Assembly: GCA_025450855.1 (NCBI GenBank)
Contig: JANWLL010000102.1
Span: 1-34,103 of the forward strand
Source: Vulcanimicrobiia bacterium
GTDB taxonomy: Bacteria; Vulcanimicrobiota; Vulcanimicrobiia; Eremiobacterales; Eremiobacteraceae
Length of the DNA: 34,103 bases
Direction: 5' to 3'
Shown piece by piece: positions 1 through 14,041 of the stretch. The notes beneath the pieces were generated by a model that searched no databases, was not told where the DNA came from, and was given only the letters and a program-made list of their open reading frames with translations. The position numbers and the translations under genes are program-made. Position 1 is the first letter of the stretch. The number at the start of each line of letters is the position of its first letter.

Positions 1-1384
1 CGAAGATGACGTTGACGACCGGCTCGAGGTAGCGGTTGAGCAAGTCGACGACCTGCTCGGGCATGAGGCGTTCGGAGAGCTCGGTGAAGCCGCGGATGTC
101 GGCGAAGAGCATCGTCGCGCGGACGCGCGTGCCGCCGAGCGCAAACGCTTCCGGGTCTTTGAGCAGCGCATCGACGACGTGCGGCGCGAGGTAGCGCTCG
201 AACGAGCGCGCGATACGGCTGCTCTTCTCGACCTGTGCGAGGTTCTCGGCGGCGAGTGCCCGGCTTTCGGTGAGGTCGTTGAGGACGACGGCGGTGCCCG
301 CGCCGCTGCCGGCAGCGCCGCGGATCCGGAAGAAGGTCAGCTGGAGGACGATGCTGCCGCGCACGAAGTGATCGCCGGCGATCTCGAGCACGAGACGCGC
401 ATCCGATTGGTTACGGAACCGCTCGACGAGCGACGAGAAACCGGGCAGCCACGTGTTGAGGATGCGTGCGTTGCGGCCGACGAGCGTCGACGCCGACAAG
501 CCGAACGTGATCTCGGCGGCGCGGTTGAACAGCGCGATCGTATCGGTCGAATCGAGGACGACGACGCCCGACGCGATCGACTCGAGGATCTCGTCCGTCT
601 GGCCCTTGATACCGGATAGTTCGGCGAAGCTCTTCGTCAAGTCGTCGTAGAGCCGTGCGTTGTCGATCGCGACAGCGGCTTGGTCGGCGATCGTCGCGAG
701 CAGCTCGGGATCGTGGTGGAGCAGGCTGTCGGGGCGGATCCGCGAGTCGACGTAGATGACGCCGACGACGCCGTCCTTGTTGCGGATCGGCACGCAGATG
801 ATGGACCGGATGTGGAGCGATCGGATGCTCGGGGCTTCGTCGACGTTCGGATCATTTTGCGCGTCGGTCGTCACGAGCGGTTCGCCTTCGCGCAGGACGC
901 GCTCGACGATCGACCGGCTGATGGCGAACGACGGCGCGCCGATGTCGGACGGATCGAGATTGCTCGCGGCGCTGTACTCGCGCGATCCGCCGGCCGGATC
1001 GGGGATGACGACCAGGCCGCGTTCTGCGGCCGTCGCGTCGATGGCGAGATCGACGACGAGTTGGAGAAGCGCCGGCACTTCGCGGACGGCGTTGATCGCC
1101 TTGCCGATTCGTACGAGCGTGTCAGCCCGGCGCAGCGCCTGCGCGAGCTCGACCTCGAGACGTTGCGCGCGCGTCGCCGCGACCGACGCTTCGACCTCGC
1201 GCGCGCGCACGTCGTGGCGGGCGTCCGCGAGAAGTTCGATCAGACGATCGGCGGCGTTCTTCGAACGCGCGGGCGGACGGCCGGAAGTGGGCTTCGCATC
1301 GGCGAGCGAGCGCGCGTCATCGTACGCTTCATCGAGACGCGAAGCGATACGCTCCCACGGATTGTCACGCCGGTCGTGACTCAT
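1..1384 (-). CDS. GAF-PAS class III adenylate/guanylate cyclase (3' end beyond window)
   Basis: Reading leftward from an ATG at 1384-1382, preceded by GGTGGTGAG, gives about 461 residues with no stop before the window edge. Residues ~1-85 are charged and helical. Residues ~88-245 resemble a GAF sensor domain, ending in a typical IADQAAVAIDNARLYDDL helix. Residues ~262-385 resemble a PAS domain (SGVVVLDSTDTIALFNRAAE). A linker with SFERYLAPHVVDALL leads into the class III cyclase catalytic domain at ~421, where FADIRGFTELSE holds the first metal-binding Asp. The protein would make cAMP or cGMP from ATP or GTP in response to a small ligand or redox cue. The substrate-specifying residues lie outside the window, so cAMP versus cGMP cannot be decided. 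No membrane segment is seen, so it is probably cytosolic. It is divergent from the flagellar operon. Confidence 0.9.
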   Translation of the reverse strand, partial: MSHDRRDNPWERIASRLDEAYDDARSLADAKPTSGRPPARSKNAADRLIELLADARHDVRAREVEASVAATRAQRLEVELAQALRRADTLVRIGKAINAVREVPALLQLVVDLAIDATAAERGLVVIPDPAGGSREYSAASNLDPSDIGAPSFAISRSIVERVLREGEPLVTTDAQNDPNVDEAPSIRSLHIRSIICVPIRNKDGVVGVIYVDSRIRPDSLLHHDPELLATIADQAAVAIDNARLYDDLTKSFAELSGIKGQTDEILESIASGVVVLDSTDTIALFNRAAEITFGLSASTLVGRNARILNTWLPGFSSLVERFRNQSDARLVLEIAGDHFVRGSIVLQLTFFRIRGAAGSGAGTAVVLNDLTESRALAAENLAQVEKSSRIARSFERYLAPHVVDALLKDPEAFALGGTRVRATMLFADIRGFTELSERLMPEQVVDLLNRYLEPVVNVIF

Positions 1385-1433
1385 CTCACCACCCGATGCT
1401 CGAGGCACGTCAGAACGAGCGGCGACGGCAATA

Positions 1434-1508
1434 GGTCCGACAAGCAAGGTCGGGACCGCCGCCTTCTCATCTATTACTATCGGCTGCAAAGCCACCGGCT
1501 TCGAGCCG
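1434..1508 (+). promoter_or_regulatory. possible structured 5' leader of the flagellar operon
   Basis: The 256-base gap between the cyclase and flgB holds several complementary segments. GGTCCGAC (1434-1441) can pair with GTCGGGACC (1449-1457). Further on, GGCT(1482)-GCAA-AGCC(1490) forms a small stem with a GNRA-type loop, and CGGCT(1496)-TCG-AGCCG(1504) a second one. GGCT and AGCC each occur twice in alternation, so pairings 1-2/3-4 and 1-4/2-3 exclude each other, as in a switch. Arms are only 4-8 bp in GC-rich DNA, so chance is a real alternative. No confident -35/-10 promoter was found. Confidence 0.3.
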
Positions 1509-1640
1509 ACGGGAGATCGAATATTTCCACGGTTCGTACTGGTGTTCTTTCGTCGGAGGTCGCTTTCGCGGCCGCCACTCCGCAGACAAACGCTGTTCAT
1601 ATGGTAAGCGTACGCTCGTTCCCAGCGGGAGGTCACGGCA

Positions 1641-1961
1641 ATGGCAGATGGGTCTTTCGGGTTGATCGAACAAGGTCTTCACGTGTCGCAACTGCGGGCG
1701 CGCGTGCTCGCGGAAGACGCTGCGAACGCGCGCTCGACCGGTTTCGTCGCGCGCGACGTAACGCCGGCACCCGAGTTGAGCGACCGCGGCCTTGAGTTCG
1801 CGGCGGCCGTACGTTCGGCGCCCACGTCCGGAGAGAGCGGCACGATCGAGTACGCGATGGGCGCGACAGCCGAGAATTCGCTGCGCTTTCGGGCGCTCGC
1901 CGACCAAGAGCGAGCGATGCTGCGCGAGTATCGCACCGTTGCTGAAGAGGCGCGGCGATGA
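1641..1961 (+). CDS. flgB: flagellar basal-body rod protein FlgB
   Basis: This 106-residue protein starts with an ATG behind a good GGGAGG ribosome site. Residues ~8-35 (LIEQGLHVSQLRARVLAEDAAN) follow the FlgB N-terminal helix pattern, in which this helix precedes the NIANADTPGY motif. Here that motif is degenerate (DAANARSTGFVARDV). The C-terminal helix (ENSLRFRALADQERAMLREY) matches the end of FlgB. The protein is somewhat shorter than the usual ~130 residues. FlgB forms part of the proximal rod that crosses the periplasm and is exported by the flagellar type III apparatus, which fits the lack of a Sec signal. It is first in the operon and overlaps flgC by 4 bases. Confidence 0.8.
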   Translation: MADGSFGLIEQGLHVSQLRARVLAEDAANARSTGFVARDVTPAPELSDRGLEFAAAVRSAPTSGESGTIEYAMGATAENSLRFRALADQERAMLREYRTVAEEARR

Positions 1962-2416
1962 CCGCGTCGGCGTTCGACATAGCGGCCAGCGGAATGGCCG
2001 CGCACCGCGCTGAGATGGATCTGATCGCGGAGAACATCGCCAATTCAGGTATCGCTCGTGCGGACGGCACCCCGTTCCGTCCCCGCGCTCCCGTCCTAGC
2101 GCCGGCCGGCGACGGCTCGTTCGCGAGCGCGCTCGAATCGGCGCTCGGATATGAGCCCAACGCCGGTTTCGCGTTCGACGACATGAAGGGGGTCGACGAA
2201 GGCGATTCGGCGTTCGGGTTTGCGATGTTCGGCGGCGGCGCGCCCGAGCCCGTACGAGTCGCGTCGATCGTTTCGAAAACAGGCGCCGGAGGCGACGATT
2301 CCATCGATCAAATGGTGTCGCTCGTCGCGGCCGGGCGAGCGTACGACGCGGACGTGGCAGCACTGCAGGCGGCGAAGCAGATGGACGTCGAGGCGATCGA
2401 CGTGGACCGCACATGA
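1958..2416 (+). CDS. flgC: flagellar basal-body rod protein FlgC
   Basis: The 152-residue product has the classic N-terminus FDIAASGMAAHRAEMDLIAENIANS (residues 6-30), the signature of flagellar rod and hook proteins. The C-terminal helix QMVSLVAAGRAYDADVAALQAAKQM matches the coiled FlgC end (family pattern MVDMIAASRAYEANVTA). The two ends pack as a coiled coil in the rod; the middle is variable. The start ATG overlaps the flgB stop (ATGA), so translation is probably coupled. It also overlaps fliE by 4 bases. FlgC, FlgB and FliE together build the proximal rod above the MS ring. Confidence 0.87.
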   Translation: MTASAFDIAASGMAAHRAEMDLIAENIANSGIARADGTPFRPRAPVLAPAGDGSFASALESALGYEPNAGFAFDDMKGVDEGDSAFGFAMFGGGAPEPVRVASIVSKTGAGGDDSIDQMVSLVAAGRAYDADVAALQAAKQMDVEAIDVDRT

Positions 2417-2697
2417 ACGTCGATATCGTCGACGGCGTCGCGCAAGCCGCCTTACCGCTCTCGGCGTCAACGTCTGCGCCGTCATCCTTTAGAGATGCGT
2501 TGGCGAGCGCGCTCGGGGGCGCCGCCGACGCGCTGCACGGCGCTGACGTCGAGGCCGCCGTGCTCGCAGGTGGCGGGGGTGACGTCGTCAGCGCTTCGAT
2601 CGCGCGAGCCAAGGCCGACGTCGCGCTCGAGGTGATCTCGGTCGCCGCATCGCGCGTGAGCGGCGCCGTCAACTCGCTCCTCCAGACGCAGGTGTGA
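2413..2697 (+). CDS. fliE: flagellar hook-basal body complex protein FliE
   Basis: This is a 94-residue protein of normal FliE length. The conserved part is C-terminal: ARAKADVALEVISVAASRVSGAVNSLLQTQV (residues ~63-94 in part) fits the FliE pattern in which a helix beginning with an Ala/Asp-Val cluster runs to a terminal MQV-like end. The N-terminal half is low-complexity Ala/Ser. FliE joins the MS ring (FliF) to the rod and is an early export substrate. Position between flgC and fliF is the usual one. It overlaps flgC by 4 bases and is followed by fliF after 3 bases. Confidence 0.85.
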   Translation: MNVDIVDGVAQAALPLSASTSAPSSFRDALASALGGAADALHGADVEAAVLAGGGGDVVSASIARAKADVALEVISVAASRVSGAVNSLLQTQV

Positions 2698-2700
2698 TCC

Positions 2701-4197
2701 GTGCTCGCAGAGATCCACCCTCGGCTGCCGACGCTCATCGAACGGACCGCCCTATGGGTCGGCAGGCGTCGTGCCGGCGTCGCAGGTGCGATCGCAACCG
2801 GCGCGGCCCTCGCGGCGATCGCGCTGGGCATCGGGCGCTTTCAAGGCGACGTGCCGCTGTTCGATGAGGCGTTGCGCCCATCGCAAACCAGTGACGTCGA
2901 AAGCGCACTAACGCTCTGGGGTGAGACGTTTCGCGCCGACGCCCAGGGCACGGAGATATTCGTGTCCGCTTCACGGCGACGAGATCTGCTCTTGCGGCTG
3001 ACGCTCGCCGGTCTACCGCGCCGCTACGTGCCGACTTCGGCCGACGTGTTAGACGATCGATCGAACGCGCTCACACCGCAGTCGATAATCGACGACCGAC
3101 GGCGCTCCGGTATCGAGGGCGATATCGTCGCCGGATTGCGGCGTATCGCCGGCATCGCCGATGCAGCCGTCGTGCTGCCGCCCGCACAGGCCGATCCGCT
3201 CGGGGATCCCGATCGAACCGAGCCGCCGAGCGCCGCGGTGCAGCTCATCATGCAGCCTGGGGAGACGCTCTCCGCGGAAGCGGTAGCCGGCGTTCGCCGT
3301 TTTGTCGCGTCGGCGTATCCTGGTTTGTCGCCGGATCGCGTCGCCGTCATCGACGCATCCGGCGCGGCGATCGGGTCGCCGCCGTCACCCGATGCCGCCA
3401 TGACGAAGGAGCGTCGCGTGCAAGGCTCGGTGCAGTCGGCGCTCGACGCGATCTTCGGCGCCGGCGTCGCCGTCGTGCGTGTGAGCGTCTCCGCCGCCGG
3501 CTCGGAGCAGCAGTCGCAGAGCACAAAGGTCGTGCCGCATGGCGCGTTGAGCGCGGATGTCGCGCACGAGCGCGGCACCGAGGCGGGCAAGTCGTTCGAC
3601 CGCGAGCGGACGACCCGCCGCTACGCATACGATACACTTTCTGAGCGGCGGGTGACGACGGCTGACGCGCCCGTCCGAATGGCGGTGGCCGTCTTCCTCA
3701 ACGCGTCGCGCGTCGCGTCGACGTCCGTTTCGGATGTCAGCGCGCTGGTGCGAGCCGCCGCCGGCGCGGATCTGGCAGCGGGTGACGAGGTCGTCGTGCA
3801 AACGCTCGACTTCGCATCGCCCGCTCCTCAATCGCCTCCTTCGCCCGCAGACGTTCCGGATGTTCGTGCCGGGATCGCGCGGGCCGCAGTCGCGTGCGCG
3901 CTCGCATTGTTCGGCTTTGCGACGCTGCCGCTTTCGCGCGCCCGCGGGTTCGCGTTGGAAAAGGCTGCTTTAGCGAAGACGCCGGTCACGTTTTCGTCAA
4001 TCGACCCGCACGCCGAGCGCTCGCGATCGATTCTCGCGTCCCTCGCCGGCGAATCGCCGCAAGCCGCGGCATACGTGCTCGCCTTCGAGCCGCACGACGT
4101 GCGCGAGGGCGTTCTGCGTCGGTGCGCCGCCGAACGGCGCGATGCGATCGTCGCGTATCTCGACCTTCGCTCGTCAACGGAGGTCGTCGGAAAGTGA
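2701..4197 (+). CDS. fliF: flagellar MS-ring protein FliF with a FliG-like C-terminal segment
   Basis: The 498-residue protein starts at a GTG 3 bases after fliE. Residues ~25-45 form a first membrane helix and ~391-412 a second, the normal FliF topology. The periplasmic part carries the family signature: EGDIVAGLRRIAGI, VVLPP, EPPSAAVQLIMQPGETLS, then VASAYPGLSPDRVAVID. After the second helix FliF normally ends in a short peptide that binds FliG. Here residues ~440-490 instead read SILASLAGESPQAAAYVLAF...VREGVL...RRDAIVAYL. This follows the armadillo-type FliG repeat (family pattern EHPQTIALVLSxLxPExAAEVLxxLP). No fliG gene follows; fliH starts inside the stop codon. FliF builds the inner-membrane MS ring. 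Fusion to a shortened FliG is inferred from residue pattern, not from an alignment score. Confidence 0.9.
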   Translation: MLAEIHPRLPTLIERTALWVGRRRAGVAGAIATGAALAAIALGIGRFQGDVPLFDEALRPSQTSDVESALTLWGETFRADAQGTEIFVSASRRRDLLLRLTLAGLPRRYVPTSADVLDDRSNALTPQSIIDDRRRSGIEGDIVAGLRRIAGIADAAVVLPPAQADPLGDPDRTEPPSAAVQLIMQPGETLSAEAVAGVRRFVASAYPGLSPDRVAVIDASGAAIGSPPSPDAAMTKERRVQGSVQSALDAIFGAGVAVVRVSVSAAGSEQQSQSTKVVPHGALSADVAHERGTEAGKSFDRERTTRRYAYDTLSERRVTTADAPVRMAVAVFLNASRVASTSVSDVSALVRAAAGADLAAGDEVVVQTLDFASPAPQSPPSPADVPDVRAGIARAAVACALALFGFATLPLSRARGFALEKAALAKTPVTFSSIDPHAERSRSILASLAGESPQAAAYVLAFEPHDVREGVLRRCAAERRDAIVAYLDLRSSTEVVGK

Positions 4198-4700
4198 TAC
4201 CAGACGGGTTTGCGCCGTTCGTGCCGCGCGTCGCGATCGTGCGGTCGCGAGCGCAAACAGCTACCGTAGAGCCAGACACATCGGTCGAAGAGGTTCTGCC
4301 GGGACCGGACGCGACCGACCGGGACGCCGTCGCCGAGTTTCGCGACGAGGTGGCGAGAAGCTGCGATGAGACTCAGGTCGCCGCGTCGGTCCGCGAACGC
4401 GCGATCAAGATCGCCGGCGAGGCCTGCGCGCGGGCACTCCGCGAGGCGATCGCGAGAAATCGGCTCTTCGTCGCTCGTTTCGTCGACGATGCGATAGAAG
4501 CCGCCGGACCTGGATCGAGCAGGACGGTTCGGCTCTCGCCGATCGATGCGGCGGCATGCCAAGGTCGCTTAGGCACGAGCGTCGTCGCGGACGAGGGCGT
4601 CGCGCCCGGCGAAGTCGTCGTCGAAACCGAACATGGAAAGATCACCGCCACGGTCGACCAGCGCGCGCTCCTCCTCGTCCGCGCCGTCGCCGACTCGTGA
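4194..4700 (+). CDS. fliH: FliH-like stator of the export ATPase
   Basis: A GTG at 4194 overlaps the fliF stop (GTGA) and gives 168 residues; earlier in-frame starts would lie deep inside fliF. The N-terminus has Pro/Asp-rich linker sequence, followed by a long charged helix (~60-105). The C-terminal part ADEGVAPGEVVVETEHGKITATVDQRA follows the FliH/SctL/V-ATPase E-subunit ending (typical: LxPGxCRVExxxGxVDAxLxxR). FliH binds and restrains the ATPase FliI and links it to the C-ring and export gate. It sits directly before fliI, as is usual. The family is poorly conserved, so the name rests on both the C-terminal motif and the position. Confidence 0.77.
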   Translation: MIPDGFAPFVPRVAIVRSRAQTATVEPDTSVEEVLPGPDATDRDAVAEFRDEVARSCDETQVAASVRERAIKIAGEACARALREAIARNRLFVARFVDDAIEAAGPGSSRTVRLSPIDAAACQGRLGTSVVADEGVAPGEVVVETEHGKITATVDQRALLLVRAVADS

Positions 4701-6076
4701 TGCCCGGTGACGCGCCGCTGCCGCTTTCCTACGCATCCGCCGACGGCTGGGTCCGCCATGGCACGGTGGCAGGAGTGTCGCGCCGCAAGATGCGCGTCGT
4801 CATGCCCGGCCTCGCGATCGGCGCATGCGTCCAAGTCGAGCGACGCGGAAGGCCGGATATCGCAGCAGAGGTGGTCGACCTCGACGGCTCGTGCGCAACG
4901 TGCGTGCCGCTCGGCGATGCGACCGGCGTCGTCACGGGAGCACGCGCGAGTTCGAGCGGCGCTCGCATCGGTTCGTTCGTGGGCGGCGCTCTGCTCGGCC
5001 GCGATACGGATGCGTGGGGTCGCTCTAACGGCATTCGTGGCGTGCGCGCCATCTGCGTAGACGATCCGGGCGGCGTTTCGGAGCGAGTCGCCATCGAGCG
5101 GGCGCTGCACACCGGCGTCGCGGCGATCGACGCGTTCGCGACGCTCGGGTACGGCCAGCGGATCGCGTTATTCGCCGGTGCGGGTGTCGGCAAGACGTCG
5201 CTCCTCCGACGCATCGTCGAAAACGCGGTGGTCGACGCGCGCGTCATCGCGCTCGTCGGTGAGCGGGGTCGCGAAGCCGCAGAGCTCATCGAATCGCTGC
5301 GAACCGACCCGCGTCGGAAGACGACGACGGTCGTATGCGCGACGGCCGACGCACCCGCGCTCGAGCGGCTCGCGGCGATCCGTACCGCGACCCTCCATGC
5401 GCGAACGCTGGCAGCGGAAGGCCGCGATGTCTTGCTCGTCGTCGATTCCCTCACGCGCGCTGCGACCGCTTGGCGCGAGCACGCGCTCGAGGCGGGCGAA
5501 TCGCCGGCGCATCGCGGTCATCCGCCCTCGCTTGCGTCGGTCCTCGCGTCGCTCGTCGAGCGCGCCGGCGCGTGGAACGGCGGCAGCGTCACGGGCATCT
5601 ATTCGGTTTTGGTCGACGGCGACGACGTGCGCGAGCCCGTCACGGATTCCGTCCGAGGGCTCCTGGACGGTCACATCGTCTTATCGAGACGGCTAGCCGA
5701 AGCCGGCGCTTTCCCGGCCATCGACGTTCTTCGCAGCCTGAGCCGGTTGATGTCGAATGTCGCATCCGACGTCCATCGTGCGGATGCGACGACGGTTCGA
5801 GCGGCGCTCGCGACGCTCGAGCGATCTGAGGACTTGTTCGCGATCGGCGCTTACGAACCCGGCGGCGACGCGGCGCTCGATGCGGCGGTCGCGATGCGCG
5901 ACGAGATCGCGGCGCTCCTCTACGGCGAGGCGACCGCGGACGCACCTTCGCAGGTGCCGACGCTTGAGGCGCTCGGCTCGATCGCCGGCCGCTTGAGAGC
6001 GGCGACGAGGCCCGCAATCGAGCCGCGCCGATCCGGAACGCACGGCGCCGGAAAGCGACGCGTCGTCAGACGCTAG
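4700..6076 (+). CDS. fliI: flagellum-specific export ATPase FliI
   Basis: This is a 458-residue protein of normal length, with an ATG that overlaps the fliH stop. The Walker A P-loop is GAGVGKT (residues 160-166). VGERGREAAELIE follows, then Walker B VLLVVDSLTRAA. The diagnostic FliI/SctN stretch GESPAHRGHPPSLASVLASL comes next, followed by GSVTGIYSVLVDGDDVREPV and DGHIVLSRRLAEAGAFPAID. All catalytic elements of a rotary F1-beta-like type III ATPase are present. It energises unfolding and delivery of export substrates. The usual downstream fliJ is not seen; 58 bases separate fliI from the transglycosylase gene. Confidence 0.95.
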   Translation: MPGDAPLPLSYASADGWVRHGTVAGVSRRKMRVVMPGLAIGACVQVERRGRPDIAAEVVDLDGSCATCVPLGDATGVVTGARASSSGARIGSFVGGALLGRDTDAWGRSNGIRGVRAICVDDPGGVSERVAIERALHTGVAAIDAFATLGYGQRIALFAGAGVGKTSLLRRIVENAVVDARVIALVGERGREAAELIESLRTDPRRKTTTVVCATADAPALERLAAIRTATLHARTLAAEGRDVLLVVDSLTRAATAWREHALEAGESPAHRGHPPSLASVLASLVERAGAWNGGSVTGIYSVLVDGDDVREPVTDSVRGLLDGHIVLSRRLAEAGAFPAIDVLRSLSRLMSNVASDVHRADATTVRAALATLERSEDLFAIGAYEPGGDAALDAAVAMRDEIAALLYGEATADAPSQVPTLEALGSIAGRLRAATRPAIEPRRSGTHGAGKRRVVRR

Positions 6077-6134: not shown

Positions 6135-6896
6135 ATGGACATATCCCCGGCGTCGGCGATCGGCCTTGATGCATTTTCCGATGCCGATCCGCTTGCGAAC
6201 GCCGGCGCTTACGCAGGCGAGGTCGGATCGAGCCAGGCTTCTGAGGACGCAGTCGAACTGCCGACTTCGGACGCGCGCGTCACCGAACCGCAAGATCGAT
6301 TGCTCGACGATGCACAGTCGGGGGTGGCCGGACTCGAGCGCCGATTCGCGGCGTTCACGCAGCTGCTGCGCCGAGAGCTGTCGACGCTCGAGAGCCGCTG
6401 CTCTCTTGCGCTGCGCTCGCTGTTCGGGGCTTCATCCACCCATGCGCCGCCGGCTTCGAACGCCACGAGCGAAGTGGATCCAGGTTCGAGAGCCGCGCCG
6501 CCCAGCCGCTTCGCGGGAATCATCGACAATGCGGCGCACCGGAACCACCTCGATCCGGCGCTGCTCGACGCGGTCATCTCTCAGGAATCGGGTTTTCGCG
6601 CCGACGTCGTCTCGGGCGCGGGTGCGGTCGGGCTCATGCAGCTGATGCCCGGCACCGCGCGCGAGCTCGGCGTCTCGGATCCGTTCGACCCGGCGCAGAA
6701 CGTCGAAGGCGGTGCTAAGTACCTGCGCTCGCTCCTCGACCGCTACGATGGCCGGCTCGATCTCGCGCTCGCGGCATACAACGCCGGACCGGCGGCCGTC
6801 GACCATTTCGGCGGCGTGCCCCCATATCGAGAGACGCAGCAGTACGTGAGCAGCATCATGGCGGGTTACCGGTCGGCGGTGCTGCGCGGCGGGTAG
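6135..6896 (+). CDS. lytic transglycosylase (SLT domain), flagellar operon
   Basis: The product has 253 residues and starts at an ATG behind GAGGAGCG. Residues ~1-125 are acidic with a helical stretch (LERRFAAFTQLLRRELSTLESR), and no Sec signal or membrane helix is visible. Residues ~125-250 are a soluble lytic transglycosylase domain. The catalytic Glu is E151 in ISQESGF, followed by GAVGLMQLMPGTARELGV and the substrate-groove motif LALAAYNAGPAAV. The enzyme cuts peptidoglycan between MurNAc and GlcNAc. Being last in a rod/export operon and lacking a signal peptide suggests that it leaves through the type III apparatus to open the wall for the rod, as SltF/FlgJ-type enzymes do. That role is inference. 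Confidence 0.9.
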   Translation: MDISPASAIGLDAFSDADPLANAGAYAGEVGSSQASEDAVELPTSDARVTEPQDRLLDDAQSGVAGLERRFAAFTQLLRRELSTLESRCSLALRSLFGASSTHAPPASNATSEVDPGSRAAPPSRFAGIIDNAAHRNHLDPALLDAVISQESGFRADVVSGAGAVGLMQLMPGTARELGVSDPFDPAQNVEGGAKYLRSLLDRYDGRLDLALAAYNAGPAAVDHFGGVPPYRETQQYVSSIMAGYRSAVLRGG

Positions 6897-6923: not shown

Positions 6924-6946
6924 TTATCGAGAATGATTCTCGATAA
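6924..6946. promoter_or_regulatory. perfect palindromic Fur/Zur-family operator over the znuA start
   Basis: TTATCGAGAAT (6924-6934), a central G (6935) and the exact reverse complement ATTCTCGATAA (6936-6946) form a perfect 11-1-11 palindrome. The core GAGAATGATTCTC has the 7-1-7 dyad layout seen in Fur, Zur, Mur and PerR boxes. The first ATG of znuA (6933-6935) lies at its centre. The operon encodes a metal importer and a Fur-family regulator, so autoregulated metal control is the natural reading. Which metal and which regulator act here is inferred. Confidence 0.78.
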
Positions 6947-7889
6947 CAAAAAGGCATCGCGCTCGGTCGAGATAAATCTCGACGGCTCCCGTGCCGTCAT
7001 CGCGGTCGCGTTTGCTTGCGCTATCGCGGCGGCATGTACCGGCCGCTCGGACTCGGGCACCGCGCACCCGCAAGTCGCTCCCGCGCCGCGGCTTCGCGTC
7101 GCCTGCACGATCACGACGTTGTGCTCGCTCGTCGCTTCGGTGGGCGGCGATCGCATCGAGCTCCACGGCATCGTGCCGGCCGGCGCTTCTCCCGAGACGT
7201 TCGAGCCGCGACCCGACGACATGGTCGCGCTTTCCGGCGCGAGCGTCCTCTTCGAAAACGGCCTTGGGCTCGAAGCGTGGCTCGCGCGACTCATCGACGC
7301 GGCCGGCGGAGCCGGCTTGCGCATCGAGACGTTGTCGGACTCGGTTCCGGCGGCGGACAAAGCGTCCGGCAATCCGCATCTATGGATGGATCCGGTCTAC
7401 GCCGCCGACTACGTCGCGACGATCGCGCGCACGCTGGAATCCGCCGATCCCCAGAACGCTTCCGTGTACGAGCAGAACGCGAGCATCGAGACGGCGAAGC
7501 TCGTGTCGCTCGACGGCTGGATCAGATACCACATCAATATGATCCCGCGCGATCGCCGGGCGATGATCTGCTTTCACGACGCGTGGTTGTACTTCGACAG
7601 GCGCTACGGCATAAAGGACGTCGGCGCGATCGAGCCGCTCCCCGGTCAAGAACCGGCGCCGGGTTCGTTCGCGCGGCTCATCGCGCTTGCGAAGGCGAAC
7701 CACGTGCGCGCCATCTTCGGCGAACCGCAGTATTCACCGAAGCTCGCGGATGCGCTCGCCTCGGGTGCGAACATCGCATACGTCACAAACCTATACGACG
7801 ACACGCTCGGGACCGGAGGCGTAGCCGCCGACTACGATTCGATGATGCGCCACGACGTCGAGACGATCGTCGGCGCGCTGCGCAGATGA
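6933..7889 (+). CDS. znuA: zinc/manganese ABC importer substrate-binding protein
   Basis: The 318-residue protein belongs to the cluster A-I metal-binding proteins (ZnuA/PsaA/MntC). ATG 6933 is the only in-frame start before the hydrophobic stretch AVIAVAFACAIAAAC (~22-36); the Cys there may be a lipoprotein site, though the lipobox is weak. Codons 12-17 come from the dispersed palindromic repeat. Expected metal ligands are H149 (NPHLWMDP), H215 (CFHDAW), E264 (GEPQYS) and D289 (NLYDD). The first ligand, normally His in a DPHTYEP-type motif, is Glu88 here (SPETFEP). It would capture Zn or Mn outside the membrane and pass it to the permease. No Shine-Dalgarno sequence is visible and the operator covers the start, so the transcript may be leaderless. 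It overlaps znuC by 4 bases. Confidence 0.87.
   Translation: MILDNKKASRSVEINLDGSRAVIAVAFACAIAAACTGRSDSGTAHPQVAPAPRLRVACTITTLCSLVASVGGDRIELHGIVPAGASPETFEPRPDDMVALSGASVLFENGLGLEAWLARLIDAAGGAGLRIETLSDSVPAADKASGNPHLWMDPVYAADYVATIARTLESADPQNASVYEQNASIETAKLVSLDGWIRYHINMIPRDRRAMICFHDAWLYFDRRYGIKDVGAIEPLPGQEPAPGSFARLIALAKANHVRAIFGEPQYSPKLADALASGANIAYVTNLYDDTLGTGGVAADYDSMMRHDVETIVGALRR
6966..6983. repeat. dispersed GGTCGAG palindrome, copy in znuA 5' codons
   Basis: GTCGAGAT-AA-ATCTCGAC is a perfect 8-2-8 inverted repeat. It belongs to the same family as the copies near 10129, 11035, 11139, 11960 and 18611. It lies in frame within the N-terminal region of the substrate-binding protein, just before its hydrophobic signal segment. 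Confidence 0.75.
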
Positions 7890-8827
7890 GCGAGGACGGG
7901 ATGACCGAACACGACGTCGAACACCACGACCACACGCATGTGTCGCCAAGCGAGCTGGCCGCGCCCGCCGACCATAGCCACTCCGTAGCGCCGACTGCGC
8001 CGCATCTCCACCCGCACGAAGGGCATACGCGCGGCACGACCGCCGTCATCGCCGAAGCGCTGCGCGCGCGCGGCGCGGCGGAACCGGCGGTCGACTTCGA
8101 AGGCGTATGCGCAGGCTATTTCGGACGCGACGTCCTCGACGAGGTCACCTTCGAAGTCGATCGCGGCGACTTCGTCGGCATCATCGGGCCGAACGGCTCG
8201 GGCAAGTCGACGCTCCTGAAGGCGATCGCGGGGATCCATCCGATCGAGTGCGGCGCCGCCTGGGTGCTCGGGGCAGAGCCGAGCGACGTCGACAAGCGGC
8301 GCATCGGCTACGTGCCGCAAGCGGAGTCGGTGAATTGGTCGTTCCCCGTCACCGTCAGCGACGTCGTCCTCATGGGCCGCTACGGCCGCCTCGGCCTCTT
8401 CCGCCGTCCGTCAGTCTCCGACAGAGCCATCGTCGACCAGGCGCTGGCGGAGGTCGGCATGTCGCAGTGGCGCGACTCGCAGATAGGTCAGCTGTCGGGC
8501 GGCCAACAGCAGCGTACGTTCGTCGCGCGCGCACTCGTCCAAGAGCCGGACCTGCTCTTGCTCGACGAGCCGATCGCGGGCGTCGACGCGGCGAGCCAGC
8601 ACGCGATCTTCACGCTCCTCGAAAAGCGCAACCGCGCCGGCACGACGATCATCGCTTCGACTCACGACCTGTCGTGCGTCGCGACGTGGTTCGGCAAGGT
8701 GCTCTGCCTGAACCATCACGTCATCGCGTTCGGGCCGCCGGACGAGGTGCTCACCCGCGACACGCTTGCGGCGACGTTCGGCAGCCATCCGCTGCTGATC
8801 GGCGGCCAGGAAGAGCCGCGCCCATGA
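7886..8827 (+). CDS. znuC: zinc/manganese ABC importer ATPase with His-rich N-terminus
   Basis: The product has 313 residues, about 60 more than usual for this family. The ATG overlaps the znuA stop. Residues 1-50 contain eleven histidines (EHDVEHHDHTHV, DHSHS, PHLHPHEGH), an apparent metal-binding extension. The ABC domain follows: Walker A GPNGSGKST (101-109), signature LSGGQQQRTFVARAL, Walker B LLLLDEP, and the switch His in ASTHD. The protein drives metal import through the permease from the cytosolic face. The His-rich extension may sense or buffer zinc; this is inferred from composition. A second in-frame ATG at codon 6 is possible. It overlaps the permease gene by 4 bases. Confidence 0.94.
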   Translation: MSEDGMTEHDVEHHDHTHVSPSELAAPADHSHSVAPTAPHLHPHEGHTRGTTAVIAEALRARGAAEPAVDFEGVCAGYFGRDVLDEVTFEVDRGDFVGIIGPNGSGKSTLLKAIAGIHPIECGAAWVLGAEPSDVDKRRIGYVPQAESVNWSFPVTVSDVVLMGRYGRLGLFRRPSVSDRAIVDQALAEVGMSQWRDSQIGQLSGGQQQRTFVARALVQEPDLLLLDEPIAGVDAASQHAIFTLLEKRNRAGTTIIASTHDLSCVATWFGKVLCLNHHVIAFGPPDEVLTRDTLAATFGSHPLLIGGQEEPRP

Positions 8828-9690
8828 TCCATTGGCTCGCCGATCCGATGCAAAACGCGTTCATGGTGCGCGCGCTCGTCGCTGCGACGTTCATCGGGCT
8901 GACGTGCTCGGTGATCGGCGTCTTCGTCGTACTGCGCAATTTGTCGTTCATCGGCGACGGTCTCGCGCACGCGTCGTTCGCCGGCATCGTCATCGCATAC
9001 ATGATGAAGGCGAACCTCTACGTCGGCGGTCTCGTCGTCGCGGTGCTCACCGCGCTCGGTATCGGTTCGATCGCCAAGCGCTCCGAGCTGTCGCTCGACG
9101 CGGCGATCGGCGTCCTGTTCACGGCCGCATTCGCGCTCGGCGTCCTGCTCATGTCGCGCGCGCGCAGCTACTCGTCGGATCTGCAAGACTTCCTTTTCGG
9201 CAACATCCTCGGCGTCGACCGCCTCGACATCATCCTCGTCGTCACGCTCGCGGCGTTCGTGCTCGCGATCGTCATGCTGCTCTACAAAGAGCTGCTCTTC
9301 TCGTCGTTCGATCCGGTCATGGCGCAAGCGAGTGGACTGCCGACCGATTTCCTCTACTACTTGTTGCTCGTGCTGTTGGCGGTCACGATCATCGTCTCGC
9401 TGCAGGCGGCGGGCATCGTGCTCGTCGCGGCACTCCTCGTCACGCCCGCGGCGACGGCCTATCAACTGACGACACGCTTCGGCACGATGATGGTCGTTTC
9501 TGCCGTGGTCGGCGTGGTCTCGTCGGTCGGCGGCCTCTATCTGTCGTACTATCTCGACGCCGCGTCCGGCGCGACGATCGTCCTCACCGCGACGGCATGC
9601 TTCTTCATGGCCCTGCTGTTCTCGCCTCGCCGGCGTTCGCTGCTCTCAGCCGTGCTCGCGTCGCGGCGCGCGGCGGTGCGCGCACGATGA
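8824..9690 (+). CDS. znuB: zinc/manganese ABC importer permease
   Basis: This 288-residue protein is almost entirely hydrophobic, with about eight or nine membrane helices, as in the ABC-3 family. Recognisable family stretches are NLSFIGDGLAHASFAGIVIA, the coupling-helix region around DFLFGNILGVDRLDI, and LQAAGIVLVAALLVTPAATA. It forms the membrane channel with ZnuA and ZnuC. The start ATG overlaps the ATPase stop, and its own stop overlaps the fur-type regulator gene, so the four genes form one translationally coupled unit. Confidence 0.93.
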   Translation: MIHWLADPMQNAFMVRALVAATFIGLTCSVIGVFVVLRNLSFIGDGLAHASFAGIVIAYMMKANLYVGGLVVAVLTALGIGSIAKRSELSLDAAIGVLFTAAFALGVLLMSRARSYSSDLQDFLFGNILGVDRLDIILVVTLAAFVLAIVMLLYKELLFSSFDPVMAQASGLPTDFLYYLLLVLLAVTIIVSLQAAGIVLVAALLVTPAATAYQLTTRFGTMMVVSAVVGVVSSVGGLYLSYYLDAASGATIVLTATACFFMALLFSPRRRSLLSAVLASRRAAVRAR

Positions 9691-10115
9691 CGAAAGAGCA
9701 GGCACGGCGCGAGGTCCGAGCCGCGCTGTCGGGCGGCTCGTTCCGCGTGACCAAACAGCGCCTCGCGATCGTTGACGAGCTTGCCGCAGTCGAGCGGTAC
9801 GAAACCGCGAAAGAACTTCATCAACGTCTCTCCCGAAAGCGCAGCGGCATTGGGCTTGCGACGATCTATCGCACGCTCGAAACGCTCGAGTCGGTCGGCG
9901 CGGCGTCGGTCCGCACCCAGGGCCGCGGCGAAAGCGCATATCTTTTCTGTTCGCCCGAACATCACCACCACGCGGTGTGCACGAAGTGCGGCAAAGTCGA
10001 AGACGTGCCATGCCGGTCGATCGGCCGCATCGAGCGCGATCTCACGCAAGCGCTCCGCTTCAAGACGACCCAGCACCGCTTCGAGTTCTTCGGTCTGTGC
10101 GACCGGTGTTCGTGA
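9687..10115 (+). CDS. Fur-family metal-dependent repressor (Zur/Mur-like)
   Basis: The 142-residue protein has the Fur layout. Its winged helix carries RVTKQRLAIVDELAAV and the recognition region GLATIYRTLETLESVG. The metal-binding/dimerisation half follows, with EHHHHAVCTKCGKVEDV and a terminal FGLCDRCS. The two CxxC pairs make the structural zinc site; the four-His run adds regulatory ligands. It most likely represses its own operon through the palindrome at 6924-6946. Membership in a Zn/Mn importer operon favours Zur or Mur over Fur, but the sequence alone does not fix the metal. It overlaps znuB by 4 bases. Confidence 0.92.
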   Translation: MTKEQARREVRAALSGGSFRVTKQRLAIVDELAAVERYETAKELHQRLSRKRSGIGLATIYRTLETLESVGAASVRTQGRGESAYLFCSPEHHHHAVCTKCGKVEDVPCRSIGRIERDLTQALRFKTTQHRFEFFGLCDRCS

Positions 10116-10117
10116 CG

Positions 10118-10999
10118 ATGCAAGGGGAGCGGTCGAGATTTATTTCGACCGCCGCGGCCTTAGCGTTCGTCGCCGCAGCGGTCTTGGGCGCAGCATCAGC
10201 GTCATCGTCCCCGACGCCGACGGCATCGCCGGCCGCGACGTCGTCGCCGTCACCGTCGCCCTCGCCACGCATTCCGCCCGCGGTGCCGGTCGCGCTTCAC
10301 GCCGGCGACTCGATCAGCGATCGACAGCTGTTCGCGTACCTCTCGTATCCGGTCGCTTCCGGCGACTGGGTGCGCTACCGCGTCGCCTTCACGGACGGTT
10401 CCACGGTCGACAAAACCGTCGGTTTCGCGAGCGAGCGGGTCCAGGGCACGCCGACGCTTTTCATCGAGACGCACGTGCACGCGCTGCCCGTCAGCGGACT
10501 TCCCGCCGAGACGACCGTCGGCATCGGCACCGATGCCGTGCTGAAGACGTATGTCATCGGCTCGACGCTCGGAGATCTCGCGCGGACGTACCGCGTGCTC
10601 ACGAGCGCGCTGAAAGTCTCGAGCTTCGAGTACGAGGTGTCCGCCGGAAATAGCGCGACCTATTCGATCTTGACCGGCGCTGTCGATACGTCACCGCGGT
10701 ACGGCAGGCTGCATTCGATCGACGCGGTCGACATGCGCATCGGCCGGACCGTCGTCCACGCGACGCGCCTCGTCGCAGAGTTCCCCTCGCGATCGCTCCC
10801 CGCCGGTGGGGTCGACTTGCCGATCACGATGGAGGTCTGGCAATCTCCCGACGTGCCGCTCGGCACCGTCGCGATCAAGGCCGGTGGTGGGCGATACATC
10901 GATTGGCGGCTGGTCGCGTTCGGTCGTGGGGGCTATCGCTCGATGTTCTCCAAGACGCTCGACCAGATCCGCAGCGCGTCACAACCCGCGATGCCGTAG
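10118..10999 (+). CDS. exported protein of unknown function
   Basis: I do not recognise the family. The 293-residue product begins 2 bases after the Fur-type gene, so it probably belongs to the same transcript. Residues ~1-30 form a signal peptide (RSRF then TAAALAFVAAAVLGAASA), followed by a Ser/Pro/Thr linker (~30-52). The rest is a soluble domain rich in beta-forming sequence and single Trp/Tyr residues (SGDWVRYRVAFTDGSTVDK, GGGRYIDWRLVAFGRGGY). No metal-binding cluster is obvious. Codons 3-12 are the palindromic repeat, and its stop codon overlaps another repeat half. A link to metal supply is suggested only by position. Confidence 0.75.
   Translation: MQGERSRFISTAAALAFVAAAVLGAASASSSPTPTASPAATSSPSPSPSPRIPPAVPVALHAGDSISDRQLFAYLSYPVASGDWVRYRVAFTDGSTVDKTVGFASERVQGTPTLFIETHVHALPVSGLPAETTVGIGTDAVLKTYVIGSTLGDLARTYRVLTSALKVSSFEYEVSAGNSATYSILTGAVDTSPRYGRLHSIDAVDMRIGRTVVHATRLVAEFPSRSLPAGGVDLPITMEVWQSPDVPLGTVAIKAGGGRYIDWRLVAFGRGGYRSMFSKTLDQIRSASQPAMP
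10129..10152. repeat. dispersed GCGGTCGA palindrome, copy in signal-peptide codons
   Basis: GCGGTCGA (10129-10136) and TCGACCGC (10145-10152) flank an 8-base centre, GATTTATT. The copy lies inside the first codons of the exported protein gene and supplies part of its signal-peptide n-region, as the 6966 copy does for znuA. Confidence 0.75.
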
Positions 11000-11034
11000 C
11001 GGTCGAGCATCGACGACTTGCATTCTAGTCTGTA

Positions 11035-11058
11035 GCGGTCGAGCTTTAGCTCGACCGC
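11035..11058. repeat. dispersed palindrome, perfect full-length copy
   Basis: GCGGTCGAGCT-TT-AGCTCGACCGC is a perfect 11-2-11 inverted repeat, the most complete simple copy of the family in the window. It is flanked by TAG on the left and CGCGG on the right. As RNA it would form a stable hairpin but has no T-tract, so it is not a standard terminator. Confidence 0.85.
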
Positions 11059-11128
11059 CGCGGTCTCTGCGGAGGGAAAGATGGAGCGATCCACCTTCAG
11101 GGTCGACCGCCGCGATCTTCGCACTGAG

Positions 11129-11166
11129 AGGTCGGCTCCGGTCGAGCTAAAGCTCGACCGCTACAT
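11129..11166 (+). repeat. left direct repeat (38 bp) bounding a less GC-rich cassette
   Basis: These 38 bases, starting AGGTCGGCTC and ending CGACCGCTACAT, recur identically at 11950-11987 in the same orientation; the following CCAC also matches after one mismatch. Each copy contains the palindrome CGGTCGAGCT-AA-AGCTCGACCG (here 11139-11160). The 783 bases between them differ in composition from the surroundings. Confidence 0.9.
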
Positions 11167-11351
11167 CCCACTACGTTATCGTATACAAATGCGACGAACT
11201 AAATACGTCCGACGGTTCGGCTCGGAAGCAAAAGGCTGATCTAATCCCGCTTAGCGGCACTATCGCCGGGAAGTATCCGCTCTTAATCGATCACCTCAAC
11301 CGAGCCAGGTGCTTAGTCTATTCATCACGCGCAAGCATGAAGGCGAACCTC

Positions 11352-11504
11352 ATGGGTAAGGCTCGCCCCGTCAGTCTATTTCCACTTGACCTTGATAAGG
11401 CGATGCGCGGACTGCTCGCAGTTCCTAAGGAAGCGGTCGAGCCCGACACCAAACCCGATCCTAAGAAGAAGAGCAAACGACACGCGAAGAGTAAACGAAG
11501 ATGA
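11352..11504 (+). CDS. small basic protein, function unknown
   Basis: The 50-residue product starts MGKARPVSLFPLDLDKAMRG, continues LLAVPKE and ends in a Lys/Arg-rich tail (KKKSKRHAKSKRR). It resembles a widespread class of tiny proteins with an S-L-x-P-L-x-x-x-x-A-h-x-x-L-L core and a charged tail, for which I know no function. ATG 11352 has AAGG 9 bases upstream; ATG 11337 is an alternative adding five residues. The stop overlaps the next ATG (ATGA at 11501), suggesting coupling to the lipoprotein gene. Codon use is less GC-biased than in the neighbours, hinting at transfer. Confidence 0.55.
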   Translation: MGKARPVSLFPLDLDKAMRGLLAVPKEAVEPDTKPDPKKKSKRHAKSKRR

Positions 11505-11937
11505 GGCCTAGAAACAAGATTGTTCGGTTACTGGTATTGCTTTGCGCATCGTTCGCATTATCAAGCGCAGGGTGTGGGAACGTGTCATCCCCTTCGTCGC
11601 CGCCTTCCGCGCAAGACGTTTCTCTTTGGGTCAAATCGGGAATTCCTCTCGGGGCGTCAAAGTCGGAGGCGTTGCGTTTCTTGAGGACTAACACGCTAGA
11701 GGGTTACGCCGCAAGGGTGACTTGTCGGCAATTAGGCCACGCGTTTTTTATGGCGGCGGATTTCGATCATATCATAAGGATGTGCTGATCGCCACCCTCG
11801 GACAACCTCCAGACCGGTACGCCTCCACGGTTTGTACGAACATAATTTTTGTTTCGTTCGACAGTCATTGGAGTGTCGATTTTAGAGATGCGGAATCGGC
11901 CTGTGCGACTTTCCCAAAGGTGTCAACAGGCAGATAA
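11501..11937 (+). pseudogene. small lipoprotein gene with an apparent frameshift
   Basis: The first frame (11501-11788) encodes a lipoprotein signal, MRPRNKIVRLLVLLCAS then LSSAGC with Cys as the lipid site. It continues VKSGIPLGASKSEALRFL, a motif I associate with small exported proteins that start a domain with IPLGxSxxxVxxFL. This frame stops at 11788. The -1 frame, open to 11937, continues with YGGGFRSYHKDVLIATLG and TNIIFVSFDSHWSVDF, ending TGR. Joining the two at a run of six T (11744-11749) gives one sensible protein of about 145 residues. Possible causes are a real mutation, an assembly or sequencing error in the homopolymer, or slippage during expression. Base composition is lower in GC than the neighbours. 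Confidence 0.55.
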
Positions 11938-11949
11938 TCGCCCAATGCA

Positions 11950-11987
11950 AGGTCGGCTCCGGTCGAGCTAAAGCTCGACCGCTACAT
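11950..11987 (+). repeat. right direct repeat (38 bp) bounding the cassette
   Basis: Identical to 11129-11166 and in the same orientation. It contains the palindrome CGGTCGAGCT-AA-AGCTCGACCG at 11960-11981. A truncated third copy, TAAAGCTCGACCGCTACAT, follows at 11997-12015. Confidence 0.9.
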
Positions 11988-12054
11988 TCCACGTGGTAAA
12001 GCTCGACCGCTACATGCCAATTCAGCAGGCTTTCATCGCCGCCGGGCTGAAGTT

Positions 12055-12072
12055 TGTTAACCATGGTTAACA
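12055..12072. promoter_or_regulatory. palindromic DtxR/MntR-type operator over the regulator start codon
   Basis: TGTTAACCATGGTTAACA is a perfect 18-bp palindrome. The ATG at its centre (12063-12065) is the start of the regulator gene. GTTAACC/GGTTAAC half sites resemble the dyads bound by DtxR/IdeR/MntR proteins (family pattern TTAGGTTAG...CTAACCTAA). Autoregulation by the gene it covers is the natural inference. Confidence 0.65.
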
Positions 12073-12761
12073 CCGGCGGGGATCGATGGCCCGATCGCGC
12101 CCGGCAGGACTATTTGAAATCGATCTACCTGGCGGGGAGCGGTCAGGCCGTCAAGGCCGCCGACGTCGCGCGACGGCTTGGCGTCTCGAGAGCGTCGGTG
12201 AGCAAGCGGGTGAGAGAGCTCGAGCGCGGTGGGCTCGTCAAGCGCGACAAGGCGGGCGTCGCTCTGAGATTGACGCAGGCCGGGCGGAAGATCGCGCTCG
12301 CGGTCATCCGGCGGCATCGGATAGTCGAGACGTTTCTCCATAGCTCGCTCGGCGTACCGCTCGACCGCCTCCACGCAGAGGCGGAGCGCATCGAGCATGC
12401 GGTATCGGACGACGTCGCGATGCGCCTCGAGCGGCTCATGCGCTTCCCCGAGATCGATCCGCACGGCGACGCGATCCCGGACGCACGCGGTAGACTTGTC
12501 CGCGTCGCCGACGAAGCGCTGTCGGGGATCGCGACCGGCGTCGTCGCGCACGTGAGCAGGATCGACGACCGCGTCCCCGCGGTGGTCCGCGCACTCGAAC
12601 GCGCGGGCGTCCTTCCGGGTGCGAGAGTCCGCGTTATCGCAAAGCGCGCCGGCGAAACGCGGCTGCGCATCGGCGCGCGGATCGTGTCGTTATCCGAGAA
12701 AGCATCGAACTCGGTTCGCCTGCGTCGCCGGTCATCGGCCGCGAAACGGACGGTCGCATGA
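12063..12761 (+). CDS. DtxR/MntR-family metal-dependent transcriptional regulator
   Basis: The 232-residue protein starts at the ATG inside the palindrome; a TTG at 12054 is a weaker alternative. Residues ~10-65 are the winged helix-turn-helix (QDYLKSIYLAGS, VKAADVARRLGVSRASVSKRV). The dimerisation/metal region follows: HRIVETFLHSSLGVP and HAEAERIEHAVSD supply the His/Glu ligands of the DtxR family. The C-terminus (~150-215) looks like the FeoA/SH3-like domain (VVRALERAGVLPGARVRV, GARIVSL). With metal bound it would repress itself and the Nramp gene, which starts in its stop codon. Mn is favoured by the Nramp partner, though Fe is possible. Confidence 0.92.
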   Translation: MVNTGGDRWPDRARQDYLKSIYLAGSGQAVKAADVARRLGVSRASVSKRVRELERGGLVKRDKAGVALRLTQAGRKIALAVIRRHRIVETFLHSSLGVPLDRLHAEAERIEHAVSDDVAMRLERLMRFPEIDPHGDAIPDARGRLVRVADEALSGIATGVVAHVSRIDDRVPAVVRALERAGVLPGARVRVIAKRAGETRLRIGARIVSLSEKASNSVRLRRRSSAAKRTVA

Positions 12762-14041
12762 GCGACGCCATCATCGCACAAGAACCATCGACCACGCTCA
12801 CCGAAGCGCGCGCCTCCCTCGACGGGCGGCGCCGAGGGATCGCTGCGCTGCTGCCGTTCCTCGGGCCGGCGGTCATCGCGGCGGTCGCGTACATCGATCC
12901 CGGCAACATCGCGACCGACGTCCAAGGCGGCGCGCAGTTCGGCTACCGTCTGCTCTGGGTCGTGGTCTTCGCGAATCTCACCGCTATGTTCGTGCAAGCG
13001 CTCTCCGCGAAAGTCGGCATCGCCACCGGACGCAACCTCGCGGAGCTCTGCCGCGACCATTTCGGTGCGCCCGCCGCATACGCGTTATGGGTCGTCGCTG
13101 AGATCGGCGCGATGGCGACCGATGTCGCCGAGTTCGTCGGCGCCGCGGTCGGGTTCTATCTGCTGCTGCGCGTGCCGCTCCTGTGGGGCGCCGGACTTGC
13201 CGCGGTCGCGGTCATAGCACTCCTCGCGCTCGAACGGCGCGGCTTTCGCAGGCTTGAAGCAGCGATGGCGACGTTCGTCGTCATCATCGGCGCGGCGTAC
13301 GTCTTCGAGCTCATCGTCGCGCATCCGACCGGCTGGGTTTCGGGCGGCGCTTTCGTCGTCACGCTCCCGCAAGGCGCGATGTATCTCGCGGTCGGCATCA
13401 TCGGCGCGACGATCATGCCGCACATCGTCTTCCTCCACTCGTCGCTGACGCAGAACCGGATCAAGCCGTCGAGCGAGGCGGACGCCAGGCACATCTACCG
13501 CTTCGAGGTGATGGATGTCGTCATCGCGCTCGGCGCCGCGGGCATCATCAACGTCGCGATGCTCGTCGTCGCGGCGGCCGCATTCCACTCATCCGGGCAC
13601 GCCGACGTCGCGACCTTAGGTCAAGCCTACCAGATGCTGACGCCGGCGCTCGGCCCCGCGGCCGCCGCTGCGTTCGCGATAGCACTGCTCGCGTCGGGCC
13701 TATCGTCTTCGGCGGTGGGCACGATGTCGGGTCAGGTCATCATGCAGGGCTTCGTGCGTTTTTCGATACCGATTTGGGTGCGCCGAGCGGTGACGATGGT
13801 GCCGAGCTTCATCGTCATCGGTCTCAGTCAGAATCCGCAGGCGGTGCTTATCTTCACGCAGGTCGTGCTGTCGTTCGTCTTGCCGTTCGCGCTCGTGCCG
13901 CTCGCGCTCCTGACGTCGCGCAAGGACGTCATGGGCGGGCTCGTCAACTCGCGTGCGACGACCGCGACCGCGTGGCTGATCGTCGCGCTCATCATCGCGT
14001 TCAACGTCGTGCTCATCGGCGCGCAGTTCACGGCGCGATGA
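12758..14041 (+). CDS. mntH: Nramp-family divalent metal transporter (MntH type)
   Basis: This is a 427-residue membrane protein of normal Nramp length with about eleven helices. The helix 1 metal motif DPGN is at 47-50 (AYIDPGNIATD) and the helix 6 motif MPH at 220-222 (GATIMPHIVFLHSSL). These are the metal-coordinating elements that define proton-coupled Mn/Fe importers. The start overlaps the regulator stop by 4 bases, so expression is coupled to MntR-type control. The 3' end overlaps the convergent lipid kinase gene by 14 bases. Confidence 0.95.
   Translation: MSDAIIAQEPSTTLTEARASLDGRRRGIAALLPFLGPAVIAAVAYIDPGNIATDVQGGAQFGYRLLWVVVFANLTAMFVQALSAKVGIATGRNLAELCRDHFGAPAAYALWVVAEIGAMATDVAEFVGAAVGFYLLLRVPLLWGAGLAAVAVIALLALERRGFRRLEAAMATFVVIIGAAYVFELIVAHPTGWVSGGAFVVTLPQGAMYLAVGIIGATIMPHIVFLHSSLTQNRIKPSSEADARHIYRFEVMDVVIALGAAGIINVAMLVVAAAAFHSSGHADVATLGQAYQMLTPALGPAAAAAFAIALLASGLSSSAVGTMSGQVIMQGFVRFSIPIWVRRAVTMVPSFIVIGLSQNPQAVLIFTQVVLSFVLPFALVPLALLTSRKDVMGGLVNSRATTATAWLIVALIIAFNVVLIGAQFTAR

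Follow-up and report, generated by a model that had tools for sequence, protein, structure and literature searches.

The window, by which we mean the whole 34,103-nucleotide stretch of DNA that was analyzed, carries on its forward strand an operon of rod, MS-ring and export genes. The first gene encodes a divergent FlgB-like proximal rod protein of 106 amino acids (1641..1961), which matched TIGR01396 FlgB with E=2.3e-4, below the model cut-off, and which occupies the same place 5' of flgC in the genus and the family. It is followed by genes for the proximal rod protein FlgC (1958..2416; TIGR01395 FlgC, E=2.9e-16, with Pfam Flg_bbr_C and Flg_bb_rod) and the rod adaptor FliE (2413..2697; PF02049, E=9.6e-5, above cut-off, and TIGR00205). 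The MS-ring protein FliF, 498 amino acids long (2701..4197), contains the domains PF01514 (YscJ_FliF, E=6e-21) and PF08345 (YscJ_FliF_C, E=8e-10), and its closest folds are Salmonella FliF MS-ring chains (E from 2.0e-16). The inner ring is therefore built from one FliF protein, with both domains and the FliF fold, in contrast to the two-protein SctJ and SctD ring of the injectisome. Downstream lie FliH (4194..4700; PF02108, E=2.1e-7) and a FliI/SctN export ATPase (4700..6076; PF00006, E=1e-69, and T3SS_ATPase_C), for which the FliI and SctN models score nearly alike. The last gene encodes an SLT lytic transglycosylase (6135..6896; PF01464, E=3e-29), probably the wall opener for the rod, whose best NCBIfam match is the flagellar-assembly lytic transglycosylase of BB0259 type (E=7e-29, below cut-off). 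Several rod proteins of the window gave weak scores against Pfam and NCBIfam profiles.

A sequence-only reading of this DNA had described the operon as running straight from fliF into fliH, and this is what we found: the GTG start of fliH at 4194 overlaps the fliF stop codon (4195-4197), and fliG is absent between the two genes in the window. In FliF itself, a second membrane helix is predicted at residues 388-423, followed by a disordered stretch and then by a C-terminal tail (residues 436-496; 4006..4188, forward strand).

On the opposite strand, adjoining the operon and divergent from it, lies a GAF-PAS-adenylate/guanylate cyclase gene (window 1-1636). All three families include genomes with the same cyclase neighbor (L058:10078-11790, L062:4480-6282, and L069:1600-3210), and cyclic-nucleotide signaling may therefore be tied to the system to which this FliF belongs. 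Downstream of the operon is a metal-homeostasis block (window 6933-14041), which up to 10115 holds a ZnuA-like binding protein, identified by search, and an ABC ATPase and permease and a Fur-like protein, recognized by eye; after 10115 come a DtxR/MntR-type repressor (by search) and an NRAMP-like transporter (by eye).

The FliF tail is a FliG middle domain

The segment that follows the second membrane helix had been proposed to resemble the FliG repeat carrying the EHPQ motif, and both profile and structure comparisons upheld this, placing the resemblance at residues 436-496 and in FliG_M rather than FliG_N. AlphaFold modeled the tail of the window's FliF as four compact helices with a pLDDT of about 90-94. 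Searched alone, this tail matched Pfam FliG_M at residues 442-484 (4024-4152) with E=0.0047, under the Pfam curated cut-off; all 28 tails of relatives matched the same model, with a best E of 1.6e-9. When a profile of the 28 tails was compared with the PDB, the top 11 matches were 11 FliG chains (best 3.8e-7) and nothing else was credible. Alignment of the tails by hhalign with FliG and FliF domain profiles from the same phylum gave a probability of 94% for FliG_M (E=1.3e-7), as against 9.8% for FliG_N, 0.1% for FliG_C and 1.7% for the canonical FliF C-terminus, and this comparison ruled out the latter three as the origin of the tail. The torque domain FliG_C was absent from the tail both in Pfam searches of the 28 sequences and by hhalign. 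Moreover, the best fold match of the isolated tail model was FliG_M bound to FliM (4qrm; Foldseek probability 0.99, TM 0.75), with an E-value that is weak because the domain is tiny.

The tail match spans the helices around the EHPQ motif of FliG_M and, in the larger family f2, appears by hhalign to reach the last FliG_M helix. The motif itself is degenerate in the tails (ESPQ, the form that replaces EHPQ in the window, and EPPH). Pfam MgtE_N also matched 21 of the 28 tails (best 4.8e-4), which we take as an ARM-like resemblance because FliG_M scores far better. A lengthened but otherwise normal FliF C-terminus with an ARM-like L-x-x-L-A-x-E-x-P pattern and no FliG piece is hardly credible: canonical FliF C-termini of the phylum (LEKLAKEKPTKVAELLKSTWL) do resemble the tail by eye over about 20 residues, but their hhalign probability is far below that of FliG_M and the four matched helices have no counterpart in the canonical tail. 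The FliF tail is the FliG middle domain, that is, the FliM-binding EHPQ domain.

The tail is a regular feature of the relatives, being present in 28 of 28 tested; tailed FliF proteins are about 470-500 amino acids long and include the collar domain. FliF proteins from other classes of the phylum are 550-570 amino acids long and have the usual C-terminus, with FliG alongside in five loci. The tail is therefore a gain of this class.

The remaining machine and its distribution in the class

The MS ring, the rod, FliH and FliI, and the FliPQR-FlhBA export gate are all present in the system, which has one conserved gene set across three families. In the relatives we identified a FliM-like and a FliN protein (both SpoA), FliP, FliR, FlhB, and FlhA, with FliQ assigned by position only, together with a short FlgE/F/G-like protein and a FliK-like protein recognized by eye from its C-terminus. 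These parts lie within about 20 kb in Vulcanimicrobium alpinus (L057, L058). In the window's family the system is split into two pieces, one beside rplM-rpsI and the other beside secD/secF; in the window's own genome the second piece is on contig C22, which is cut within flhA, and SpoA proteins and the FlhA fragment were found there.

When compared with canonical FliM of the same class, the FliM-like protein could be aligned across its middle and C-terminal domains (E=8e-7). The EHPQ of FliG_M and the GGXG of FliM are established contact motifs (PMC4642947); GGXG is not found in every FliM-like protein, and GGPG is retained in that of one member of the window's family (G005). Because FliM-like and FliN-like proteins are present, the C ring, or sorting platform, appears to be retained and the torque layer alone to be gone. 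The earlier picture of an export apparatus with a rod but no torque ring thus stands as regards torque and needs refining as regards the C ring, whose FliM-like and FliN-like proteins are kept.

A second locus, present in all six genomes read for it, holds tandem FlgF/FlgG-like rod genes and a FliA/WhiG-like sigma factor near gpmI (L168:5035-7687 and L167:4908-7025, reverse strand, with equivalents in L169-L172). In annotated cases it also adjoins the yggS-sepF-divIVA cell-division cluster, and this position is a lead toward a division- or pole-linked regulon.

We surveyed the 81 nearest genomes, which belong to a class of Candidatus Eremiobacterota (Vulcanimicrobiota), soil bacteria. A FliF search found the tailed protein in 70 of the 81, and the recurrence of the same architecture in these 70 genomes rules out a sequencing gap as the source of the missing fliG. 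FliG_C was detected in 34 genomes, MotB_plug in 33, Flagellin_N above cut-off in 34, and FlgI in 31; most members of the class have no genes for a working flagellum. FliG, MotB, flagellin, and FlgI co-occur almost perfectly (p<1e-15), but the presence of FliG is independent of that of tailed FliF (Fisher p=0.75). Therefore, these four components are part of a flagellum that is complete and distinct from the tailed-FliF system. Consistent with this, genomes with FliG have a second, canonical FliF of 550-600 amino acids and usually a second FlhA, along with MotB and flagellin, which indicates that they encode an ordinary flagellum as well. Altogether, 30 genomes keep the tailed-FliF system beside a complete flagellum.

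FliG is missing from the other 40 genomes with a tailed FliF, among them all 14 of the window's family. MotB_plug was found in none of these 40, and flagellin and FlgI were found in a single one (G072, 86% complete); FlgI was absent from the rest. The torque-bearing FliG C-terminal domain, already noted as missing from the operon, was not detected in the window's own genome (a draft, 81% complete, in 178 contigs, in which neither FliG_C nor FliG_M gave a match), in the 13 further genomes of the family, or in V. alpinus, while positive controls were detected. MotB_plug and Flagellin_N were likewise absent from all 14 family genomes and from V. alpinus WC8-2 (G014), whose closed chromosome of 3,508,363 bp carries the system and also lacks FlgI. 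Torque and filament genes are thus missing from closed and near-complete genomes. The authors who described V. alpinus WC8-2 reported no flagella on negatively stained cells and no flagellin gene (PMC9758169).

Some genomes depart from these patterns. G025, a small genome of 1.9 Mb, carries the tailed-FliF system twice (L070 and L071), together with FliG, canonical FlhA, and MotB, and gave no match to flagellin or FlgI. Six genomes, several of them near complete, miss both FliF and FlhA (G019, G027, G047, G051, G075, and G078); they probably represent losses of the system and are useful for phenotype comparison. Nearly all named matches to a FliF profile of 14 sequences were labeled Candidatus Eremiobacterota, with one labeled UBP12 and two labeled Rhodospirillales; these two records with a tailed FliF (L089 and L097) are probably mislabeled or contaminated MAGs.

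History and proposed function of the system

In a tree of FlhA, the system's sequences formed one clade with 100/100 support, within which the window's family separated from the others. The flagellar FlhA proteins of the class formed a separate clade, also at 100/100, and three SctV sequences made up a third group. The tailed-FliF system is, on this tree, one old, vertically inherited lineage. The export gate protein FlhA does not group with SctV, in a tree with three SctV and four outside flagellar rows, where long branches limit deeper reading. A dN/dS of 0.136 for fliF, and of 0.167 for its tail part, between the window and its closest relative indicates purifying selection and no decay.

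In the flagellum, FliG_N is bound by FliF, FliM is bound by FliG_M, and the stator is met by FliG_C; the FliM/FliN ring also recruits FliH-FliI and cargo. A FliF that ends in a small piece of FliG makes the machine look built for export and not for spin. We consider it likely that the system represents the inner half of a type III export machine that derives from the flagellum, has no rotary motor, and has been passed down through the whole class. In this machine, the FliF tail would take the place of FliG as the adaptor to the C ring. FliF would form a membrane ring surrounding the FliPQR-FlhBA gate, and a rod of FlgB, FlgC, FliE, and FlgE/F/G-like proteins would pass through the periplasm behind the lytic transglycosylase, rod and transglycosylase together suggesting a conduit through the wall. 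By carrying its own FliG_M, FliF would bypass FliG_N and omit FliG_C; the tail, which we infer to bind the FliM-like protein, would join the FliM/FliN-like ring directly to the membrane ring, so that cargo and the FliH-FliI ATPase could still be recruited. Judged from the established roles of the families, torque would have been abandoned, with the torque domain, stators, and filament gone. Such a machine presumably exports proteins and does not rotate, and the absence of FliG_C, MotB_plug, and Flagellin_N from the window's family and from the V. alpinus chromosome supports the initial suggestion of a non-rotating, secretion-only derivative.

Among other explanations, injectisome-like delivery of effectors into other cells, as an independent exaptation, fares best and is still unlikely. 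All that motility needs is missing while export, FliK-like, and rod parts are kept, and the same has been inferred for the ancestral non-flagellar type III secretion system (NF-T3SS) of Myxococcales (PMC3459982). However, no secretin or translocator was seen in the loci read, FlhA stands apart from SctV in the tree, and the one-protein FliF ring and the rod proteins are flagellar. We regard as very improbable a degenerate remnant of a lost flagellum whose genes persist by inertia in non-motile lineages. The 40 genomes that hold the system without torque, stator, or filament genes (flagellin in G072 excepted), the weak scores of several rod proteins, and the complete loss of the system from a few genomes (G019, G027, G047, and G051) would fit such decay, but one gene set is conserved across three families, dN/dS is 0.14, the system is maintained beside a complete flagellum in 30 genomes, and the FliG_M tail, which canonical FliF proteins of other classes lack, is a derived gain of the whole class. 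Also very improbable is a machine that rotates, whether by means of an unusual stator or by borrowing torque parts from a second flagellar locus, the latter having been put forward in the sequence-only reading: retention of FliM/FliN-like ring proteins would suit it, but the tail has no torque domain, FliG_C, MotB, and flagellin are absent from V. alpinus and the window's family, FliG is elsewhere independent of the tailed-FliF system, and the closed V. alpinus chromosome and the co-occurrence counts together rule out torque parts at another locus.

The export machine proposed here shares features with several known systems. Chlamydiaceae have a natural FliF-FliG_M fusion that was proposed to dock the FliM homologue SctQ (Bergeron 2016, PMC4768692); there, as here, the cytosolic end of FliF is homologous to the M region of FliG, no separate FliG exists, and the bacteria are non-flagellated. 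By description, however, chlamydial FliF has about 330 amino acids and an incomplete periplasmic region, and it occurs alongside an injectisome and only a few flagellar genes, whereas the FliF described here has about 470-500 amino acids with all ring domains, and the rod, FliM/N, and export genes are the system's own set. The flagellum of the class itself likewise comprises FliF, FliH, FliI, rod proteins, FliM/N-like proteins, and FliPQR-FlhBA, but its FliF is 550-600 amino acids long and accompanied by FliG, MotB, flagellin, and FlgI, and its FlhA falls in a separate clade. The Myxococcales NF-T3SS is also a vertically inherited, flagellum-derived export system of environmental bacteria with motility parts missing (PMC3459982). 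That lineage is classed with NF-T3SS, and the present system is set apart by description through its FliG_M-tailed FliF and its rods of FlgB/FlgC/FliE type, which the same study used as flagellum-specific markers (PMC3459982). Laboratory FliF-FliG fusions, for example in Vibrio (PMC11481574), also join the two proteins covalently; they carry FliG for motor study, whereas the fusion here is natural and contains half to all of FliG_M and no full FliG. Finally, Buchnera retains genes for the flagellar basal body and for export, presumably for a role other than motility (PMC8109811), but by description it is a reduced symbiont, whereas the system here is ancient, extends across a class of environmental bacteria, and has a re-engineered FliF.

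Exaptation of flagella for secretion has been described before (PMC3459982), and we found no prior account of this system in Eremiobacterota in the open-licence literature. As far as that literature shows, the following are new: a complete version with rod and export parts that is vertically inherited across a class of environmental bacteria, its occurrence alongside true flagella, and a host that is in culture and unflagellated.

Arguments on how injectisomes originated from flagella usually draw on a single lineage. On balance, we lean toward an ancient, independent conversion of a flagellum into a dedicated export machine that was inherited by nearly the whole class, beside ordinary flagella in some members, and in which FliF acquired a fragment of FliG, the C ring was kept, and the motor was dropped, in parallel to the injectisome lineage and not as part of it. 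If this is true, the conversion of a flagellum to secretion would have evolved a second time, separately. Because the system still stands beside intact flagella in sister species, the steps of this conversion would be directly readable: the stator, torque ring, and filament were lost, the rod and C ring were retained, and a FliG domain was transferred to FliF. It would also be a natural experiment in which the two functions of the C ring, generating torque and sorting cargo, are separated, and one that can be tested now, since V. alpinus WC8-2, reported to be unflagellated, is in pure culture (DSM 115291).
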